Source: an uncultured SAR86 cluster bacterium
GTDB lineage: Bacteria; Pseudomonadota; Gammaproteobacteria; Magnimaribacterales; D2472
DNA: 64,000 nt
Direction of reading: 5' to 3'
Assembly: GCA_902593675.1 (NCBI GenBank)
Contig: CACJJI010000001.1
Span: 320,957 to 384,956 of the forward strand
The notes below the pieces were generated by a model. That model made no database searches. It was not told where the DNA came from and was given only the letters and a program-made list of their open reading frames with translations. The position numbers and the translations under genes were made by a program. Of the stretch, positions 30,201-41,674 are shown piece by piece. How positions within the stretch are numbered: the first letter of the stretch is position 1; each line of letters opens with the position of its first letter.

Positions 30201-31658
30201 ATGAAAAATAGACCTGTCCTTGTTGGTATTGGCTCACTGCAGCAAAAAGGCTCATTTTCTGAGCTTGATGAAGCGCTAATTTTAATGGAAAAAGCAACCA
30301 TTGAAGCAATTGAAGATAGCCAATCTCTAGAAATCAAAAACTATATTGATGAAATTCAAATACCCAAAGGTTACTGGGCCTACAGAGATCCTGGCAAGTG
30401 GATAGCAGAAAAGCATGGATTCTCTAAAGCTAAAACAAGTGTTACAAAGATTGGAGTCCTACAACAAAACTTAATTAATTCTGCTTGTAAAAAAATTATA
30501 AACGGTGACATAAGAGCAAGTCTTATTGTTGGAGGTGAAGCAAGGTTTAAAAAAATTCAGGCTCTCAAAGAAGGACTGGTTTTTGAGGAAATGCAGCTTA
30601 ATGTTAATCCAGATCATTATGTTAAAGCTAAAGAAGACTTATATGTTCCCGAGGAGCTTGAAGCCCTAGGAATGATGGCCGTTGGCTATTACGCAATCAT
30701 AGAAAGCGCCATGCGTCATAAAAGCAAACGCTCCATACAGGACCATGAAAGGTTTCTTGGTGATTTTTATGCAAAGTTTTCTGAAATTGCTGCTCAAAAT
30801 CCTCATGCATGGAATCAAAAAATTTTTACCTCAAAGGAAATTCAAAATCCATCAGCTAAAAACCATAGAATTGCCTACCCTTATAACAAACTTCATAATT
30901 CAAGCTGGAATGTGAATCAAGCTTCAGCTTTAATTATTACTAGCGAAGAAATTGCAAATAAATTAAGCATCCCATCGGCTCAACGAGTCTACCCATTAGT
31001 CTCAAGTGAAACCAATCATATGATTGGAGTGATTCAAAGACCTGATATTACACATCCTGTTGGTCTTCAATTGGCAGCTCAATTCTTGCTTGAAACAGCT
31101 GCAAAAAATAAAGTTATCCCAACTTTGTACGAGCTTTATAGCTGTTTTCCTGTGGCAGTCCAACTATTCGCTGAATCATTAAATGTGCCTGATAATATTG
31201 ATAAAACCATAACCGGTGGAATGCCTTTTGCTGGAGGACCTTTAAATAATTATATGTTGCATGCAACAGCACAAATGCTTATGAGGATCCGAAAACATAC
31301 AGATGAAATAGGTCTGATCACTGGTGTTTCCGGGATGATGACTAAGCAAGCTTTAGCGATATGGGGTAAGGATCCATTGATGGATTTTGAAGCAAAGGAT
31401 GTTACCGCAGAGGCAGAAAAATTAGAAATTCCTGTACCTATGTCCAATCTAAAAGAAGGCATTGCCAAAGTGATTGGTTGCACTACTCTTTACGAAAAGT
31501 TAAATCCCACTAAAGCTGTTTTTTATGCTGAAGATTCACAAGGCCGTCGATTAGTATTAACATCAAATGAAGAAAATATTATCAAACAAGTAGAGGAAGA
31601 AGAATGCGTAGGACTAAAAATCAATTTTTCAAACAAGCAACTGGTATCATTTGGCTAA
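30201..31658 (+). CDS. Thiolase-like protein, TLP1 type (acetyl-CoA acetyltransferase family)
   Basis: A 485-residue member of the SCP2-thiolase-like group. The thiolase core includes [23 protein letters not shown] and [15 protein letters not shown], with an added C-terminal OB-like domain (from about 400) as in thiolase-like protein type 1. The usual CGSG nucleophile block is absent; the equivalent region reads [10 protein letters not shown], so classical Claisen/thiolysis activity is doubtful. Family members are often annotated acetyl-CoA acetyltransferase and accompany fatty-acid or sterol side-chain genes. Its 3' end overlaps the next gene by 55 bp. Confidence 0.82.
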
Positions 31659-33040
31659 TTGCCTCTTTGCAAATACATGCGGATTCTAGTCTAAATCTGA
31701 GCATTAACAAACATCAAGATACCTTTGAAACCGCAGCAATGAAAATTTGGGATTGGGCTGAAGTTGGATATCAAGAATACAAAAGCTCAGAACTTTTAAA
31801 AAATGAATTGAGATCTAATGGATTTTCAATCCAATCAGGGGTTGCAGATATTCCAACAGCATTTATTGCAGAATATTCAAATGGAGGTCCAGTTGTTGGA
31901 ATTTTGGGAGAATATGATGCTTTACCAGGTCTAATGCAAACAGCCTCACCCTTCAAAGAAATCAAGGAAGGCGTTGATGCAGGCCATGCATGTGGACATC
32001 ATTTATTTGGAGCTGCATCAGCTTGGGCCGCAGTAGCAATAAAAGAATGGTTAGTAAAGACTAAAACAAAGGGAACAATTAGGTTTTATGGAACTCCCGC
32101 TGAAGAAGGTGGCTCAGGAAAAGTGTATATGGTAAGAGCCGGATTATTTGATGATGTTGATGCAGTGCTTCATTGGCACCCCAGCAGCTCTAATGCAGCA
32201 AATGCTGAATCCTCCAACGCAAATAAGTCTGCAAAATTTAAGTTTCAGGGTATTTCTGCTCATGCAGCAGGCTCACCACATAAAGGTAGATCTGCTTTGG
32301 ATGGTGTTGAAGCAATGAACATAATGGTGAATATGATGAGAGAACATATCCCGCAAGAGTCACGAATCCATTACGTTATTACAAAGGGCGGATTGGCACC
32401 AAATGTAATACCAGATATAGCAGAAGTTTATTACTATGTGCGCAATCCACAAAGAAAGAAAGTTCAAGAAATTTTCAATTGGGTTGTAAAAGCAGCTGAG
32501 GGGGCTGCTATGGGAACAGAAACAACCATGACCTATGAAGTAATGCATGGAAATTATTCAAAGCTTCCCAATAACACTTTGCAAAAAGTTATGCATAAAA
32601 ATTTAGTTACTCGTGGCGGAATTAAATATTCAAAAAAAGAAAATGAATATGCGGAGACTATATACGCCACCATGGTTTCTCCAGGCAGCAAGATTGGAGA
32701 TCAGGAAAAAATTAAACCCTTTAAAGCAAGTCACACTTATGGCTCAACAGACGTGGGAGATGTAAGTTGGGTGGTCCCTCAGGCAGGTCTCAGAACAGCT
32801 ACTTGGGTTCCGGGAACAGCTGGTCATTCATGGCAAGGAGTGGCTGCAGGCGGAACATCAATAGGGTTAAAAGGAACTAAACTAGCAGCTCAAGTTCTGG
32901 CAGATACAGCTCAAGATTTATTTAAAAATCCTAAGATTATTGAGTCAGCTCATGATGAATATTTAGAAAGAGTTGGAGCGAACTTTGAATATTACCCCTT
33001 ATTAGGGGATAGAAAACCGCCTTTAGATTATCGCAATTAA
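31604..33040 (+). CDS. Exported M20-family amidohydrolase, AbgB-like
   Basis: Zinc metallo-amidohydrolase of 478 residues related to AbgB (p-aminobenzoyl-glutamate hydrolase subunit B). Metal-binding blocks are [20 protein letters not shown] and PAEEGGSGK, with a later [13 protein letters not shown] and [11 protein letters not shown]. Unlike E. coli AbgB it has an N-terminal signal-like segment ([16 protein letters not shown]), so it is probably periplasmic. The ATG lies inside the upstream gene behind GAGGAAGAAG, suggesting translational coupling. The likely reaction is hydrolysis of an N-acyl or aminobenzoyl amino acid; the precise substrate is unknown. Confidence 0.88.
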
Positions 33041-33948
33041 ATTTTGATCAGTTGATCTAATTTGCCTGAAAGCTTTTCAAGAAAATTAATAAATGACTTG
33101 GCGCTCACAGATAAGGGTTTTTCTTTGTTGCTGATCATGCATATTTTATAACCAATCGCTGGCTCAATTTCATGAATTGAGATTTTGTCCCCATATATTG
33201 CAGCACTGAAATCGTCAATAATTGCATAACCAGAACCTTGTTCAACCATAGCTTTTGCCACTTGAATAGTTTCAGTCTCTGCAATCCAATTGACTGTTAT
33301 TCCTTCTTTCTTTAAGACATCATCAAGATTATTTTGTGCTGCATTAGTTTTTAAATTTTTAATCTTTATAAAAGGTTGATTTTTGATTCCTTTTAGCTTG
33401 AAAGTGCTCTCTTTTGGTGCATTCTTATTTGATGCTATAAGAACTAACTTTCCTGAATGCAAAACAGTCTTCTGGAATAGATCAAAATCATTTGGGTTGA
33501 AACAAATAACCAAGTCAAAAGTGAGCTCCTTTAATTGATCCTCCAGATCTGAGCTCTGTAAATTTACAATATTAAACTTAGTATCAGGATTAAGTTTCAA
33601 GTATTTATTTAATAAGTTTGGTAGCAAGCCCAGTCCCAAGGATGGAGTGCAACCAATATTGATAGTAGAAGAAGGATCGGAAACAAGATTTTCAGCAATA
33701 TTGTTAAACTTTGAGATCTGCTGATTTACATCAGCAGCATGTTTAAAGAGAATATCCGCCTCTGGAGTTGGCGAAAGTCGTCTGGCATGCCTTACAAACA
33801 GCTTTAACTGTAATTTATGTTCAGCATATGCAAGAGTTTTACTCACAAGCGGCTGAGAAACATTGAGAACTCTAGCTGCACGCGTTAATGAGCCCTCATT
33901 ATATATATGATAAAAAACTTCAATATGTCTTGAACTAATCATAGTCAT
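33037..33948 (-). CDS. LysR-family transcriptional regulator
   Basis: A 303-residue LysR protein with an N-terminal winged helix-turn-helix (SSRHIEVFYHIYNEGSLTRAARVLNVSQPLVSK, about 5-38) and a C-terminal effector-binding domain. It diverges from the TonB receptor gene across 144 bp that contain a TGTTAT-N6-ATAACA dyad, and converges with the M20 amidohydrolase gene by a 4-bp overlap. It probably controls the receptor, and possibly the downstream DASS and ggt genes; the effector is unknown. Confidence 0.93.
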   Translation of the reverse strand: MTMISSRHIEVFYHIYNEGSLTRAARVLNVSQPLVSKTLAYAEHKLQLKLFVRHARRLSPTPEADILFKHAADVNQQISKFNNIAENLVSDPSSTINIGCTPSLGLGLLPNLLNKYLKLNPDTKFNIVNLQSSDLEDQLKELTFDLVICFNPNDFDLFQKTVLHSGKLVLIASNKNAPKESTFKLKGIKNQPFIKIKNLKTNAAQNNLDDVLKKEGITVNWIAETETIQVAKAMVEQGSGYAIIDDFSAAIYGDKISIHEIEPAIGYKICMISNKEKPLSVSAKSFINFLEKLSGKLDQLIKI

Positions 33949-34092: not shown

Positions 34093-37065
34093 ATGAAATT
34101 AACAAATCTTAAGTACGCATTTGCTTTATTGCTATTGCCAATCTCTCTCAGCGTCTTTGCTCAAGAAGACTCAACAAAATTAAGTGATGTTGAGGAAGTT
34201 GTGGTCGTAGGATCACAAATCAAAGGGGCAAAAATTACAGGTGCTTTGCCTGTATCAGTCTTTTCAGGAAAAGACATAGAAGCATTAGGTGTTGATGGTG
34301 GTGATGAGCTGCTTGAAAATATTGCTGAGCAAGGTCTGAACTACTTCAATGAAGCTGAAGATGCATCCGGAGGTGTGAACGCATCTCGTGGGGATGTTGG
34401 AGCATATAACTTAAGGAATATGGGTGTTGGTAATACCCTTACCTTGCTTAATGGAAGAAGGCTCGTTAATAACGGAACCTATCAAACTGAATTAATTGGT
34501 GGTGATTTTGTTCCTACTGTCTCAGTTAACTCAAACCTAATACCAACATATGGAATGGAAAGATTGGAAATCTTGCGTGATGGTGCCTCGGCTATTTATG
34601 GCGCAGATGCTGTAGCGGGAGTTGTTAATAACGTGCTGCAAAAAGATTATGAAGGCTTAATGGTTAGAGCCAAAGTTTCTGCATATGATCACTTTGAAAC
34701 TGAAGATAATACTTTTAATGTGAAATGGGGTTCTTTCTTTAATGATGGAGCAACTAATGTAAGCGTTTTCTTTGATCACTATGATCGTGGGAACATTAAT
34801 GCGCAAGAAGATCCAAGATGGGGCGCAGGAGATCATAGACCATTTGTTGCGGATGACTCTCCATGGAAAACAAGTACTTCATTCAGGAATCTAAGCTCAA
34901 ATTCAATCTATGGGCAATTTGATATGGTGAGCTCGAGGGAGCATGCTGGTGAAAGCTACAATCATGTTTGGACTGATTCAAATGGTGAATTTGAAGTATT
35001 TCCACTTGGGGATTCTAAATGTACAAATAGAGGGCACCCTCTTTTTGATACTGGATTTGGTACATGTATTGCTCAAGATGGTAATGGAGCTCTTAGAAGC
35101 AACTTTTGGGGACCAACTGATGTGAGATCACAACTTGTCAGAAATAATATGGTGATATTTATTAATCATGACATGGGAAATGGTGTTGAGTCTTTTACAG
35201 AAATTGGAGCCTATAACTCAGATAGTGATAGAACAGCTCATGCATCTTATGCATTCTCTTCATCAAAACATAGAGTTGGTCCAGATAACTACTATCTCAA
35301 TCAACTTAAAGTGAATGTGGATGGCGTCCCTACTGCCATATTTGCCGGTAAGAATCTTTACATTGATAATTATCGCTATGAAGAAAGACAAAGACTTGTA
35401 AATGTAAAAAAAGAAACTTACCGATTCTTGCAAGGTTTCAGAGGTACTTCAGGTAATTGGGATTGGGAAACAGCATATGTTAGCTCAATTGCAAGACATA
35501 GAGATGTAACTAGAAATAGATTATCCAATAATCTATTAAAAGCTGCTTTATACGACCCTACTCCAGCTGCTTACAATCCATTCAGCGCAGGAGTGAACTC
35601 TAATATAGAAAGAGCATTGATAAGTGTTTACAGAAAAAATGAAAGTACTTTGGATATGTTTGATTTTAAAATGTCGAACGCATCCTTTATGACTCTTCCT
35701 GCCGGAGATGTTGGTCTTTTACTAGGTTTTGAGTATCGAGAAGAGGAAGTTATTGATGATAGAGATCCAAGATTGGATGGAACTATCACTTATACTGATT
35801 ACGAGGGCGATACTTATCCATTAGTTTCAGATGTTGTGAATTCATCGCCTACGCCAGACGTTTCTGGTTCAAGAGATGTGACATCGTTATTTGCAGAGCT
35901 ACAAATTCCATTAACAGAATCAATCAATGCGCAGTTGGCTGTCAGGAATGAGGACTTTTCCGACTTTGGTGATACCACAGTTGGAAAACTAGCCCTTGGC
36001 TGGGAAGTTGCTCCTTGGATGACATTAAGAGGCTCATTCTCAACAGCATTTAGAGCACCAAATATAATCCAAATCAACGAAAAAATTGTTGCTAGATCTG
36101 GAACAAGATACGACCGTGCTGCTTTCAGAGTAAATGAAGTTCAAAGTGTTGAGAATGTCATTGACTCTGACTCACGTTATACAATTCAAAGGGTCGCAAC
36201 TGGAGCCGAGGGCCTTGAAGCTGAAGAATCAGATAATACATCTTTCGGTGTGGTCTTAACTCCAATGGATGGCCTGATTGTAACTGTTGATGCCTGGACA
36301 ATTGAAAAAGATAAAACCATTGGTTTGTTTGGTAGAGAAAACCAGACTGTTAATGATATGTTGTTGCGTTTTGCTAATGGTCTCAATAATTGTGATACCT
36401 TTGCTGGAGACCCGCTCGTAGTCAGAGAGGCGCCTGATGCCGGAGATGCTGCGGGCTTTGCTGCTGCAGGTGTTTGTCCTTTTGGAGACATTAAGTATGT
36501 AACAAACAACTATACCAATATGGCTCTTAGAACTATTGAGGGAATGGATGTAGGAATCTATTACGATATTCAAACTGATTATGGTGATTTTGATTTGAGA
36601 TATATTGGAACTTTTCTTGATAAATTTGAGCAAAAAGCAAGTGGTGAATTTGCTGCTTTGCAAGCTAAGAAAGATAGTGGTGAAATCCCAGAATCAATTC
36701 CATTAAAAGGATTTGGTGACTTGCTAGAAAAAGATGGGATATATGATAACAAGCATACTATTAGAGTGTCTTGGGATAAAGGTCCTTGGGGTGCCAGCCT
36801 AACTGGATTAAGAAAAGGTTCATTTGTTCAGACCTCATTAGGACTAAAAAATGGAGTGCCGTACTTGGTTCCTGAAATGACAACTATGGATGCAACTGTT
36901 TCATATAACTTTGATCTAGGTGGCCACAAAGCAAGACTTAGGTTTGCTGTGAAAAACCTTGAGGATGAGAGAGCCCCTACTGCTGATAGATATTACGGCT
37001 ACTATGCAGATGCTCACTCTGACTGGGGTAGAAATTATTACTTAGATTTAAGAGTTACATTTTAA
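34093..37065 (+). CDS. TonB-dependent receptor (large class)
   Basis: Outer-membrane receptor of 990 residues. The signal peptide is MKLTNLKYAFALLLLPISLSVFA, the TonB-box region is VEEVVVVGSQIKG, and the plug has RLEILRDGASAIYGADAVAGVVN. The barrel ends in YYLDLRVTF with a terminal Phe. This SGSRI-type class (about 900-1000 residues) is often used by marine bacteria for carbohydrates, peptides or aromatics. GGGGAAA precedes the ATG. The divergent LysR gene and the downstream exported proteins suggest a regulated uptake locus. A strong terminator follows. Confidence 0.94.
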   Translation: MKLTNLKYAFALLLLPISLSVFAQEDSTKLSDVEEVVVVGSQIKGAKITGALPVSVFSGKDIEALGVDGGDELLENIAEQGLNYFNEAEDASGGVNASRGDVGAYNLRNMGVGNTLTLLNGRRLVNNGTYQTELIGGDFVPTVSVNSNLIPTYGMERLEILRDGASAIYGADAVAGVVNNVLQKDYEGLMVRAKVSAYDHFETEDNTFNVKWGSFFNDGATNVSVFFDHYDRGNINAQEDPRWGAGDHRPFVADDSPWKTSTSFRNLSSNSIYGQFDMVSSREHAGESYNHVWTDSNGEFEVFPLGDSKCTNRGHPLFDTGFGTCIAQDGNGALRSNFWGPTDVRSQLVRNNMVIFINHDMGNGVESFTEIGAYNSDSDRTAHASYAFSSSKHRVGPDNYYLNQLKVNVDGVPTAIFAGKNLYIDNYRYEERQRLVNVKKETYRFLQGFRGTSGNWDWETAYVSSIARHRDVTRNRLSNNLLKAALYDPTPAAYNPFSAGVNSNIERALISVYRKNESTLDMFDFKMSNASFMTLPAGDVGLLLGFEYREEEVIDDRDPRLDGTITYTDYEGDTYPLVSDVVNSSPTPDVSGSRDVTSLFAELQIPLTESINAQLAVRNEDFSDFGDTTVGKLALGWEVAPWMTLRGSFSTAFRAPNIIQINEKIVARSGTRYDRAAFRVNEVQSVENVIDSDSRYTIQRVATGAEGLEAEESDNTSFGVVLTPMDGLIVTVDAWTIEKDKTIGLFGRENQTVNDMLLRFANGLNNCDTFAGDPLVVREAPDAGDAAGFAAAGVCPFGDIKYVTNNYTNMALRTIEGMDVGIYYDIQTDYGDFDLRYIGTFLDKFEQKASGEFAALQAKKDSGEIPESIPLKGFGDLLEKDGIYDNKHTIRVSWDKGPWGASLTGLRKGSFVQTSLGLKNGVPYLVPEMTTMDATVSYNFDLGGHKARLRFAVKNLEDERAPTADRYYGYYADAHSDWGRNYYLDLRVTF

Positions 37066-37081
37066 TATTTAGGCTAAAATT

Positions 37082-37110
37082 AAAGGGAGCTTTAGCTCCC
37101 TTTTTTTTAT
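37082..37110 (+). terminator. Intrinsic terminator after TonB receptor gene
   Basis: AAAGGGAGC and GCTCCCTTT form a 9-bp stem with the loop TTTA and a run of T residues. It lies 17 bp after the receptor stop and only 9 bp before the next gene's start, so read-through or an internal promoter would be needed for downstream genes. Confidence 0.93.
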
Positions 37111-37118
37111 AAAGAATT

Positions 37119-37982
37119 ATGTATAAATTTATTTTTACTTTTCTATTTTCTTCTATTGCCTGGAGTGCAAAGGCTGATACTCTTGAATATAAGTTCGACG
37201 GTTGGTCCGGTTCTTCTTTACCTGCCTACGTAGCTAAACCCAATAAAATTAATGCTGCGACAAGACTGGTGGTTGTAATGCATGGACGAAAAAGAAATGC
37301 TGAGGAATACAGAGATCAATGGGTCAAAGCATCTCAGGAGTTAAATCTTTTAGTAGTTGTTCCTGAATTTAGTGAAAAGAACTTTCCAGAAGTATGGGGT
37401 TTTAATTATGGGAATATCAAAAATAAGAACCTAGAGCCCATCAAGCAAGATTTACATGCATTTAGTGCTATTGAACCTCTTGCTAAAAATGCATTGAAAA
37501 AATTTAAAATTAAATCAAAGAACTGGGGTATATATGGCCATGGTGCTGGAGCACATTTTGTACATCGGCTTGTACTTCATCATCCAGAGGTATCATCCAC
37601 CCTGGCAATTGCAGCTAATTTGGGATGGTATCTGTCAATGACTGATCAAGAGTGGCCTTTTGGTTTAACTAATTCAAATATAGATGACATCAAACTAAGA
37701 CAAGCTTTTAGTAAGTATTTCTTATTAATGCTTGGAAGAGCAGACACCTCAACCAAACCAAATACTCCATACGTAGCAGATCATTGGGATATTATTAATT
37801 TGCAGGGAGAACATCGACTTGCTAGAGGAAGAAACTTCTTTAAATCTGCAGTTGCGAAATCTAAAGAAGTTAACCAATTTTTTAAATGGGGGATGGTTGA
37901 AGTGCCAACCACCAAGGGCCACAGCAATACAGAACAAATGGTTCCTTATGCTGCTGAAATGTTTTATGCGAGACTAAAATAA
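37119..37982 (+). CDS. Exported alpha/beta-hydrolase-fold protein without the nucleophile serine
   Basis: A 287-residue protein with a signal peptide (IFTFLFSSIAWSAKA) and the alpha/beta-hydrolase fold: oxyanion-side LVVVMHGRKRNAEEYRDQW, the nucleophile elbow, and a C-terminal KGHSNTEQM with the candidate catalytic His. The elbow reads YGHGAGAHFVHR, so G142 (codon GGT) replaces the serine of GxSxG; relatives have GHSAG here. It is therefore probably not a classical serine hydrolase and may bind a ligand, or it may be decaying. It overlaps the DASS symporter gene by one base. Confidence 0.8.
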   Translation: MYKFIFTFLFSSIAWSAKADTLEYKFDGWSGSSLPAYVAKPNKINAATRLVVVMHGRKRNAEEYRDQWVKASQELNLLVVVPEFSEKNFPEVWGFNYGNIKNKNLEPIKQDLHAFSAIEPLAKNALKKFKIKSKNWGIYGHGAGAHFVHRLVLHHPEVSSTLAIAANLGWYLSMTDQEWPFGLTNSNIDDIKLRQAFSKYFLLMLGRADTSTKPNTPYVADHWDIINLQGEHRLARGRNFFKSAVAKSKEVNQFFKWGMVEVPTTKGHSNTEQMVPYAAEMFYARLK

Positions 37983-39418
37983 TGCAGGCTTACAAAAAAA
38001 GAGGTTTTTGGGTTGGATTAGCAGCTTTCTTTTTTATTCTTCTGACACCAAACCCAGAGTCTCTCTCACCAATAGGCTGGGCTGTTGCTGCAGTTACTGT
38101 TTTGATGGCTATATGGTGGGCAACTGAGGCGGTTCCAGTAGCCGTTACTGCGCTATTACCATTAGCATTATTTCCAATGCTGCATGTAACTGATTTTAAA
38201 ACAGCTGCCCTGCCCTATGCGAACCCAAATATTTATTTATTCATGGGTGGCTTTATTTTAGCCTTAGGAATTGAATCGTCAGGATTGCATAGGCGGCTGG
38301 CATTAAAAATGTTAATAGCTGTTGGAAATAGTGGAGCAAAATTAGTCGGGGGATTTATGCTTGTTTCTGCCTCCATAAGCATGTGGGTGATGAATACATC
38401 GACCACTCTAATGTTATTGCCAATTGGATTAGCTGTATGTTCAAGTGTTGCCGAAACTATTCCCAATTTTTCAGCAAAAGAAAGAAAAAGCTTTGAAATC
38501 TCACTTTTGCTTGGTATTGCCTATGCAGCTTCAATTGGGGGCATGTCTACTTTGGTAGGAACAGCTCCAAACATAATATTCGTTGGCTTTATACAAGAAA
38601 CATATGGTATTGAAATTTCTTTTGTTGATTGGATGAAATTAGGAGTACCTTTAGCTATCCTGATGCTGTGCGCATCTTGGTATGCAATAACAAAAATAGT
38701 TTATCCTGTTAATTTCATAGCTAGCATTGAAACAAAGCTACAGCTTCAAAATATGCTGACTGATTTAGGCCCTCTGGGTAGAGATGAAAAAAAGGTTTTA
38801 ATCATTTTTTCTTTAGCAGCTAGCGCTTGGATGTTCAGAACATTGCTTGATAATTTTGTGCCTTTATCTGGCCTAACTGATGCAGGGATTGCCATATTTG
38901 CAGCATTGAGTTTTTTCTTCATTCCTTCCGAGAATGCTAAGACAGATTTACTGACTTGGGAGCAAGCTAATAAACTTCCATGGGGCTTGCTTGTTTTATT
39001 TGGTGGCGGGTTATCTTTAGCAGCATCAATTGGATCTTCTGGTCTTGGTAGCTGGATTGGGGAAGGTTTAACTATCTTAGAGAATGTTCCGCCTATTGTC
39101 CTAATACTAGCAGTTGCGACTTTAATTATATTCTTAACTGAGATCACATCTAATGTTGCAACCACATCAACATTTTTACCAGTTGTTGGGGCAGTTGCAG
39201 TTGCTATTGGAGTAGCGCCAGTAGCTTTAACAATTCCTGTTGTGTTAGCGGCAAGTTGCGCATTCATGCTTCCAGTAGCAACACCACCTAATGCGATCGT
39301 TTTTGGGTCAGGTAAAATAACCATCCCGGATATGATAAGAGCAGGCTTTGCATTGAACATTATAGGAGTTTTCCTAGTTACTATATTTGCCTTCTATTTA
39401 GCTCCAATGATATTTTAA
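37982..39418 (+). CDS. DASS-family sodium:dicarboxylate/anion symporter (SLC13)
   Basis: Inner-membrane transporter of 478 residues with about eleven hydrophobic helices. The N-terminal WWATEAVPVAVTALLPLALFP and the two sodium/substrate-binding re-entrant tips (MNTSTT and TSNVATT) match VcINDY-type transporters. TPPNAIVFGSG near the C-terminus is the conserved signature. It imports dicarboxylates, sulfate or related anions with Na+. It overlaps the preceding hydrolase-fold gene by one base and precedes ggt by 5 bp, so the three form one transcript. Glutamate or a related anion released in the periplasm would be a reasonable cargo (inference). Confidence 0.93.
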   Translation: MQAYKKRGFWVGLAAFFFILLTPNPESLSPIGWAVAAVTVLMAIWWATEAVPVAVTALLPLALFPMLHVTDFKTAALPYANPNIYLFMGGFILALGIESSGLHRRLALKMLIAVGNSGAKLVGGFMLVSASISMWVMNTSTTLMLLPIGLAVCSSVAETIPNFSAKERKSFEISLLLGIAYAASIGGMSTLVGTAPNIIFVGFIQETYGIEISFVDWMKLGVPLAILMLCASWYAITKIVYPVNFIASIETKLQLQNMLTDLGPLGRDEKKVLIIFSLAASAWMFRTLLDNFVPLSGLTDAGIAIFAALSFFFIPSENAKTDLLTWEQANKLPWGLLVLFGGGLSLAASIGSSGLGSWIGEGLTILENVPPIVLILAVATLIIFLTEITSNVATTSTFLPVVGAVAVAIGVAPVALTIPVVLAASCAFMLPVATPPNAIVFGSGKITIPDMIRAGFALNIIGVFLVTIFAFYLAPMIF

Positions 39419-39423
39419 AATCT

Positions 39424-41127
39424 ATGACTCTGAGAAATATTTTCTTCTTACTTTTATTTATTGCTCCTAGTGCATGGGGGCAAGTTAGATATATTGATTA
39501 TCCGTCACCTTTTCATCCTACTATTGGAAATTCTGGAATGGTCGTTTCACAAAACCAGTCCTCTTCAGATATTGGGGTAGAAATTTTAAATATGGGCGGT
39601 AATGCAATTGATGCAGCGGTTGCGGTTGGATTTTCTTTAGCAATCACTCTACCTAGGGCAGGCAACATAGGGGGTGGAGGCTTTATGCTTGTTTATTTAA
39701 ATGATGAAAAGAAAACAATAGCTGTAGATTTTAGAAGTGCTGCGCCGAAAAATCTTTCAAAAAATGATTTTCTTTTTTTAAAGAATAATTATGATCAAAG
39801 AAGATATGGCTATAAAGCCTCCGGTGTTCCTGGGACTGTAGCGGGATTATTACAAACTCATGATCGTTATGGAAAATTACCATTAAAAAAAATATTGCAG
39901 CCTGTTATAAAACAAGCCCAAAAAGGAATTCAGGTTAGCTATGATCTCAATCAAGCAATTGGTAGCGCTGATCAGATAAGCCTAAACAATGAGTCTAAAA
40001 ATATTTATTATCAAAATAACCGCCCAATAAAAGAACATTTGTTAATGAAGCGACCTGATTTAGCTTGGACTCTTCGTGAAATAGCGCGAAATGGCGAAGA
40101 AGCTTTCTACACAGGCTCTATTGCCAAGAAGATAGTTCAAGCTATGCAAGAAAATGGCGGATATATTTCTGCCAAAGATCTTCAAGAATATAAGCCTAGG
40201 TTTGCAGAACCTATCCAAACAACTTATAGAAATCACATGGTTCTTGCGCATCCTCCTCCAGCTGGTGGTGCTGCAGTATTACTTGAAGGATTAAATATTT
40301 TAGAAAACTTTAGTACTGATGAAATTGGGCCAAACTCAGCAAGCTTCCTGCACTTATTTGCAGAAGCATTACAACGCGGACATATGGATAGATCAAGGTA
40401 CATGGGAGATCCTCAATTTTATGACGTCCCGATAAAAAAAATAATTTCAAAAAAAAGAGCAAATTCTTTGGCTAAGACTATTAATTTTGAGAAAGCCACT
40501 CCACCAAGCACATTAAATCCTGATTCATTATTTTATGAGGGCGAAAACACGACTCACTATTCAATCATTGATAAACATGGCAATGTTGTTTCTAATACTT
40601 ACACATTGGGCTATTCATTTGGCTCAGGAGTAACTATCCCTGGAACAGGAATTCTTATGGATAATCAAATGAATAATTTTGCTTATCAGTATGGAGACCC
40701 TGAAGTCATTGATCGCTCTGCAAGCATAGGCAATCGATTTGAGCCAGGCAAAAGACCCATGAGCACCATGACACCTATTATCATCTTTGATGAAAACAAT
40801 GAGCTGAAACTCATCACAGGATCTCCTGGAGGTGCATTAATTCCTGCTGCGGTATTAAGAGTTGTAACTGGGGTCATAGATTTTAATTTAAATCTCGGTG
40901 AGGCCACCATGCTCCCAAGACTTCATAAAGATTGGCCTTATAAAAATTTACGTTTAGAAAAAGGGTTTAGTCAAGATACTCTACAAATACTTGAATCATA
41001 TGGTCATGAACTCGAAGAATCAAAAACTATGGGTTCAACACAAAGCATTTTAATCTCTTCAAAAGGCAAAGAAGGTTTTGCTGACTTAAGAAGACCCAAT
41101 GCAGGCGTGGCAATTCAAATTGATTAA
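39424..41127 (+). CDS. ggt: Gamma-glutamyltransferase
   Basis: Periplasmic Ntn-hydrolase of 567 residues. After a signal peptide (IFFLLLFIAPSAWG), the large subunit has GGNAIDAAVAVGFSLAI and the GGGGF loop. Autocleavage is expected before Thr in ENTTHYSIIDKHGNVVS, giving a small subunit with LMDNQMNNF and the oxyanion SPGGALIP. It hydrolyses or transfers gamma-glutamyl groups from glutathione and related peptides. It follows the DASS symporter by 5 bp and overlaps the EthD gene. Confidence 0.95.
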   Translation: MTLRNIFFLLLFIAPSAWGQVRYIDYPSPFHPTIGNSGMVVSQNQSSSDIGVEILNMGGNAIDAAVAVGFSLAITLPRAGNIGGGGFMLVYLNDEKKTIAVDFRSAAPKNLSKNDFLFLKNNYDQRRYGYKASGVPGTVAGLLQTHDRYGKLPLKKILQPVIKQAQKGIQVSYDLNQAIGSADQISLNNESKNIYYQNNRPIKEHLLMKRPDLAWTLREIARNGEEAFYTGSIAKKIVQAMQENGGYISAKDLQEYKPRFAEPIQTTYRNHMVLAHPPPAGGAAVLLEGLNILENFSTDEIGPNSASFLHLFAEALQRGHMDRSRYMGDPQFYDVPIKKIISKKRANSLAKTINFEKATPPSTLNPDSLFYEGENTTHYSIIDKHGNVVSNTYTLGYSFGSGVTIPGTGILMDNQMNNFAYQYGDPEVIDRSASIGNRFEPGKRPMSTMTPIIIFDENNELKLITGSPGGALIPAAVLRVVTGVIDFNLNLGEATMLPRLHKDWPYKNLRLEKGFSQDTLQILESYGHELEESKTMGSTQSILISSKGKEGFADLRRPNAGVAIQID

Positions 41128-41674
41128 AGCTTTAGCATTCATTCACAAGATGGATGGGTTGTCTGATGGTGATTTTAGGGATTACTATGAAAACCAACAT
41201 GCTCCCCTTGCCTCTTCACTTCTTTCTTTGGAGGGCTATGAGCGAAATTATGTAAACTCAGAACTGAATCCACTATATAAATCGCTAGGATCAATAAGTA
41301 TTTTTAAATACCAATCAATGGAATCATTAGATGTTGTTGGAAAACAAATGTCTTCTGATACTGGCGATATATTGCGAAATGATGAAGTGAAATTTATGAA
41401 TGTTCCAAAAAACTATTTTGTTTTAACTCAATCAGATCAATTGACTGAAATGGAATTTAATAAAAAGATTTTTTATTCTGTGAGGGATATGGAAAACTTA
41501 AATCTATTAGATTCTTATGACGGCATAAAAAAAATTTCAGACAATCTAGTTATTGAACCTAATGAAGTCTTTGGTATTGCTGAGTATGGAATCACTAAAG
41601 AAGCATCTTTAGATACCTTGGAACATTTAACTCAAGAGCATCCTCAGGCAATAATTACCTCATGCGTTTTCTAA
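41099..41674 (+). CDS. EthD-domain protein
   Basis: A 191-residue protein with an EthD (ferredoxin-like) domain: LIKALAFIHKMDGLSDGDFRDYYENQHAPL near the N-terminus carries the family FxxYYxxxHxPL motif. A second ferredoxin-like half follows (VRDMENLNLL...). It overlaps the end of ggt by 29 bp if the ATG is used. A TTG at 41120 would give MIKALAFIHK, a more family-like start, but no ribosome site decides. It converges on gltX with a 4-bp overlap. EthD proteins occur in ether or polyketide degradation, with unclear chemistry. Confidence 0.78.
   Translation: MQAWQFKLIKALAFIHKMDGLSDGDFRDYYENQHAPLASSLLSLEGYERNYVNSELNPLYKSLGSISIFKYQSMESLDVVGKQMSSDTGDILRNDEVKFMNVPKNYFVLTQSDQLTEMEFNKKIFYSVRDMENLNLLDSYDGIKKISDNLVIEPNEVFGIAEYGITKEASLDTLEHLTQEHPQAIITSCVF

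Follow-up and report, generated by a model that had tools for sequence, protein, structure and literature searches.

A PahZ1-like protein of SAR86 bacteria with a conserved glycine at the nucleophile position, encoded between a TonB-dependent receptor and a DASS symporter

Proteins that have the alpha/beta-hydrolase fold and lack its nucleophile are already a known kind. Neuroligins and related cholinesterase-like adhesion proteins carry a non-catalytic alpha/beta-hydrolase fold without the nucleophilic serine. In human DPP10 (DPPY), an inactive S9B peptidase, this serine is a glycine, while the histidine and aspartate are kept and the geometry of the elbow is intact; engineering the serine back does not restore activity, and the role of the protein is non-enzymatic, as a Kv4 channel subunit and in membrane transport (PMC4350108). 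Among enzymes that are closer to the protein described here, PahZ1 of Pedobacter sp. KP-2 cuts the beta-amide bonds of poly(aspartic acid) (PMC4456602).

Here we analyze a gene in a 64,000-nucleotide stretch of SAR86 DNA (the window), whose product resembles PahZ1 but has glycine in place of the nucleophilic serine. Members of SAR86 abound in surface seawater and are mostly uncultured, and what organic matter they take up has largely been deduced from annotation. A search of open-licence papers, which is not proof of absence, returned neither a bacterial Ser-to-Gly alpha/beta-hydrolase pseudoenzyme nor a paper on SAR86 and gamma-glutamyltransferase (GGT); that literature likewise yielded no conserved, possibly recurrent Gly lineage among PahZ1-family proteins with ties to outer-membrane uptake in bacteria.

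Fold and active site of the Gly protein

The open reading frame runs from an ATG start to a TAA stop and encodes 287 residues, whereas the opposite strand has many stops (Table 1). Its product is similar to PahZ1 over the full length in both sequence and fold, as expected of a PahZ1-like alpha/beta-hydrolase. The closest solved homologue, PahZ1 of Sphingomonas sp. KT-1, ranks first in Foldseek (rmsd 2.2), and the KP-2 enzyme (PDB 9o7u) matches with E 4e-31. LpqC of Bordetella parapertussis (PDB 3d0k), annotated as a poly(3-hydroxybutyrate) depolymerase, shares the fold and family (E 2e-23, TM about 0.8), but is more remote in sequence and has serine in its GHSAGG elbow. The Gly protein scored below the cut-offs of the PHB depolymerase families (28 bits vs. 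107.85 for TIGR01840; 37 bits vs. 150 for NF050058), and no Pfam family exceeded its cut-off.

Table 1. Features of the locus, in window coordinates.
Feature	Position	Strand	Basis
M20-family amidohydrolase/peptidase, syntenic	31604..33040	+	TIGR01891
LysR-type regulator, in part of the loci	33037..33948	-	synteny comparison
TonB-dependent receptor	34093..37065	+	Pfam PF00593/PF07715; type co-inherited with Gly-protein residues 21-125
Intrinsic terminator after the TonB receptor gene, ahead of the Gly gene	37082..37110	+	conserved; also in SAR86 genera without the Gly gene
PahZ1-like protein gene, Gly at nucleophile position	37119..37982	+	ORF; PDB 6ve6, E 1.6e-42; model pLDDT 93, Foldseek TM 0.84/0.90 to 6ve6
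Predicted signal peptide, residues 1-19, MYKFIFTFLFSSIAWSAKA/D (SAKA/D)	37119..37175	+	sequence; similar hydrophobic N-termini in full-length orthologues
Gly142 codon GGT, replacing the nucleophile Ser	37542..37544	+	elbow IYGHGAGAHF; orthologue comparison
His146, invariant in the SAR86 Gly clade, Gln in Ser relatives	37554..37556	+	His 24/24; Gln 37/38 Ser relatives
Asp209 (GRADT), acid of the former triad, kept	37743..37745	+	alignment with relatives
His268 (GHSNT), base of the former triad, kept	37920..37922	+	alignment with relatives
DASS-family sodium-coupled anion symporter	37982..39418	+	TIGR00785, 293 bits vs. cut-off 198.6; synteny
Gamma-glutamyltransferase (GGT)	39424..41127	+	TIGR00066, 500 bits
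EthD-like protein, conserved cluster end	41099..41674	+	profile matches, synteny

Aligned with PahZ1, Gly142 occupies the position of the nucleophile, Asp209 that of the acid and His268 that of the base. An AlphaFold model built from a 49-sequence alignment (mean pLDDT 93.1) places Gly142 at the turn from strand 136-141 into helix 143-154, a canonical elbow. Strand 201-206 precedes Asp209 and strand 258-262 precedes His268; elbow, acid and histidine follow one another in the canonical order. Also kept, besides the Asp-His pair, are the region of the oxyanion loop (HG-x-x-RN) and the invariant arginines. The GHGAG elbow reported in the earlier note is thus real, and the signal peptide, the rest of the fold and the histidine are as intact as it had supposed. 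The protein is predicted to reside in the periplasm.

Conservation of the glycine in SAR86 and in the wider family

Orthologues were recovered from 17 of 26 same-genus genomes (the window genome counted), from six genomes in genus g8 and from a single g10 genome. All 24 SAR86 orthologues that cover the site have glycine there; they come from separate assemblies and share 48-94% identity. Their codons include all four for glycine (GGT, GGA, GGC and GGG), which argues that the residue is held at the amino-acid level, even though GGT and GGC are one base from a Ser codon. Hence the GxSxG serine of a poly(aspartic acid) hydrolase is absent throughout, and the triad Asp and His of the PahZ1-like family are present in 24/24 SAR86 Gly proteins. 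Conservation in orthologues was the check that the earlier note had proposed, and none has serine; the Ser-bearing relatives that these genomes also encode are paralogues with about 30% identity.

Compared with six relatives, the Gly gene has a dN/dS of 0.07-0.13, similar to that of the GGT gene (0.07-0.11); the value for the Ser paralogue is 0.05-0.08. The dN/dS values for the EthD-like gene look unusable, as its frames seem to be misaligned. The Gly gene is under purifying selection and is not decaying. Conserved loss of the nucleophile in a protein that is otherwise intact and under selection is one mark of an alpha/beta-hydrolase pseudoenzyme; the other marks, a lack of enzymatic activity and a non-catalytic function, are predicted for the Gly protein. 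The gene does diverge faster than its TonB and DASS neighbors (94% vs. 98-99% identity between close relatives), as a serine hydrolase that is decaying or privately mutated might, but we consider such a mutant, or a sequencing error, extremely improbable. Glycine in all 24 assemblies, with four codons, rules out a private mutation or error; a dN/dS of about 0.1 and the absence of internal stops rule out a pseudogene, and synteny is maintained.

Many SAR86 genomes also encode the Ser paralogue (G000:C1:10802-11584 in the window genome), so that the Gly protein is an extra copy with an altered active site. The paralogue of the window genome (L048 2249-3127) lies beside sulfatase and photolyase-related genes, with no outer-membrane receptor in the stretch read.

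A search of about 1900 genomes in all yielded 111 distinct family members. Serine occupies the nucleophile position in 79 of these and glycine in the other 32, every one of which retains the Asp and His. The Gly proteins fall into four clades, all supported at 100/100 and all set on long stems: SAR86, L105/L116/L117, L097/L131 and L176/L178/L179. The tree favors four changes between Ser and Gly, two of which are forced by well-supported branches; yet an AU test of a single Gly clade gave p 0.144 on the larger set, which does not reject one origin, and p 0.038 on the smaller set. We read these results as two to four origins of the Gly form, with one origin not firmly excluded by the AU test. 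One Ser relative (L099 118-2283) lies within a 722-residue open frame that has about 460 extra N-terminal residues, a possible fusion.

Gly and Ser proteins share a set of invariant or nearly invariant residues (His55-Gly56, Arg59, Tyr64, Pro82, Gly140, Gly144, Arg150, Asp209, Gln229, Arg233, Arg236, Trp257 and His268). By analogy with the PahZ1 family, the conserved arginines may bind an acidic substrate. Other residues, including Gly142, His146, Arg57 and Trp136, are specific to the SAR86 Gly clade. A Thr172-to-Leu co-switch that was present in one alignment was lost on realignment.

The conserved surroundings of the active site and the retention of Asp and His across four clades would also suit a protein that is still an enzyme. 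In the cavity left by the serine, the Asp209-His268 dyad could act as a general base on water or the substrate, without a covalent intermediate, and could catalyze hydrolysis, elimination or isomerization. The invariant, SAR86-specific His146 is perhaps a helper in SAR86, but its position is Gln in the other Gly clades, which also rules out His146 as a general replacement nucleophile. The same dyad is present in DPP10 without activity, and to our knowledge no PahZ1-family enzyme works without the serine. We therefore regard catalysis by the dyad as rather unlikely, although it is the main rival to the ligand-binding role that we favor below.

Locus organization and mosaic inheritance

Across SAR86 loci the genes are arranged as thiolase-like, M20, (LysR), TonB, Gly gene, DASS, GGT, EthD-like and GltX, with single-gene exceptions. 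The first of these (30201-31658 in the window) encodes a 485-residue protein that is thiolase-like by look alone; it is syntenic in SAR86 and has no Pfam match at E 1e-4. The stop codon of the Gly gene overlaps the start of DASS (TAATG). Whether or not the Gly gene is present, a strong intrinsic terminator follows the receptor gene in nearly all loci whose junction was read (the L036 and L070 stretches did not span it), so that the Gly gene belongs to a read-through unit with DASS and GGT. The terminator probably keeps expression of the receptor higher than that of the transporter genes. The operon with a symporter and GGT described in the earlier note thus holds, with the correction that a conserved intrinsic terminator (37082-37103) separates the Gly gene from the TonB receptor gene. 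In SAR86 genera g5, g6, g7 and g9, DASS and GGT come immediately after the receptor and the Gly gene is absent, which makes the Gly protein an accessory to a core uptake operon. The DASS gene of one genome (G006; L044 5777-7180) contains one in-frame TAA near the end of the match, unlike the other genomes listed.

The two halves of the Gly protein track different neighbors. In 17 loci, residues 21-125 track the receptor (r 0.75; partial r 0.77 controlling for DASS; 0/5000 permutations as high), and residues 126-287 track DASS and GGT (r 0.905). For example, two loci from one genus (L071 and L069) are 88% identical in M20, 86% in the C-terminal half and 87% in DASS, vs. 44% in the receptor and 50% in the N-terminal half. 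Between L071 and L040, which come from different genera, M20 and DASS are 68% and 76% identical, vs. 86% and 67% for the receptor and the N-terminal half. Judging from these identities, the receptor and the N-terminal half apparently travelled together, the breakpoint lying within the Gly gene near the elbow. Functional matching with the receptor, or with its cargo, would fit such inheritance, and so would mere hitchhiking. L037 combines a third type of receptor with an N-terminal half like that of the window, which weakens the case for a strict pairing between receptor and Gly protein. TonB receptors at this locus (window 34093-37065; L037, L040, L071, L072) are of at least three types, with about 40-50% mutual identity; the types are swapped between SAR86 genera, while the flanking M20 and DASS genes track genus.

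The link between the N-terminal half and receptor type, the translational coupling to DASS and the service of DPP10 as a channel subunit could all be accommodated if the Gly protein bound other proteins, serving the receptor or the symporter as a scaffold or adaptor, with no small-molecule ligand. However, conservation is centered on active-site motifs that a scaffold would not need, and other SAR86 genera run the core operon without the Gly protein. We judge a scaffold to be improbable, and rank it after dyad-only catalysis.

In the other Gly clades, the gene neighbors a Porin_O_P-type gene (3/3 genomes) or a Porin_4-type gene (2/2), or is clustered with Porin_4, LysR, an oligopeptide ABC transporter and a PurB-like lyase. 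Ser relatives, too, have TonB receptors or an OprD-type channel nearby, along with dicarboxylate carriers (DASS, SDF, DcuC) and PurB-like lyases. From the neighborhoods of both forms, the PahZ1-like family looks linked to the way in which acidic, aspartate- or succinate-like compounds are taken up and broken down. Aspartase/PurB-superfamily lyase genes recur near Ser and Gly members (L106, L107, L110, L181), in the company of transporters for dicarboxylates or peptides, a hint that the substrates may be N-substituted aspartates or similar compounds.

A candidate ligand-binding role and its known counterparts

In the reading that we favor, to which we give an even chance of being correct, the Gly protein is a pseudohydrolase of the periplasm, binding an acidic ligand and passing it on. 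A PahZ1-type polyamide or peptide hydrolase would have lost its nucleophile to Gly while keeping the fold and the other parts of the active site. An acidic, peptide- or amide-like ligand would enter through the neighboring TonB receptor, and the Gly protein would bind it and present it to the co-encoded DASS symporter, GGT and M20 hydrolase; these partners, and not the Gly protein, would perform transport and cleavage. Ligand binding, the nature of the ligand, contact with the partners and the absence of hydrolase activity are thus what we infer. The binding or scaffold role raised in the earlier note would fit the gene context, the kept active-site residues and the co-inheritance with the receptor.

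A pseudohydrolase is supported by glycine in 24/24 orthologues with four codons, the low dN/dS and the kept Asp, His and Arg residues, as well as by the signal peptide and the fixed place between the TonB receptor and DASS-GGT. It is further supported by the tracking of the receptor by the N-terminal half, the porin-side setting of the other Gly clades, the long stem of every Gly clade, and the DPP10 precedent. Against a binder, pure binding has no need of the catalytic Asp and His, yet 32/32 Gly proteins keep them. Periplasmic binding proteins are usually made in excess, whereas the Gly gene, behind a terminator with the transporter, probably is not. Nor is the outer-membrane-channel setting specific to Gly proteins, since Ser relatives lie near such channels too. 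Finally, L037 breaks the pairing of receptor and N-terminal half, and recombination hitchhiking could explain the co-inheritance.

More broadly, it is possible, though doubtful, that bacteria turned a PahZ1-type hydrolase, perhaps several times, into a periplasmic ligand-binding or hand-over protein by replacing Ser with Gly and keeping the Asp-His pair, and that SAR86 exchanged its N-terminal half and the TonB receptor as a matched module, a new accessory of TonB-dependent uptake. Gly genes would tend toward annotation as esterases or depolymerases despite having no nucleophile, and degradation that may not take place would then be counted. As a binding partner, the protein would add a new type of periplasmic component to TonB- or porin-linked uptake and give DPP10-type pseudoenzymes a bacterial counterpart that is open to experiment.

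PahZ1 and the SAR86 protein have export, the Asp, the His and the invariant Arg positions in common, but PahZ1 has a Ser nucleophile where the SAR86 protein has Gly. DPP10 shares the change from Ser to Gly at the nucleophile elbow and the kept His and Asp; in contrast, it is a eukaryotic, membrane-anchored protein with a beta-propeller and a hydrolase domain, and therefore an analogy and no close homologue. Neuroligins differ in being animal cell-adhesion proteins from another hydrolase family.
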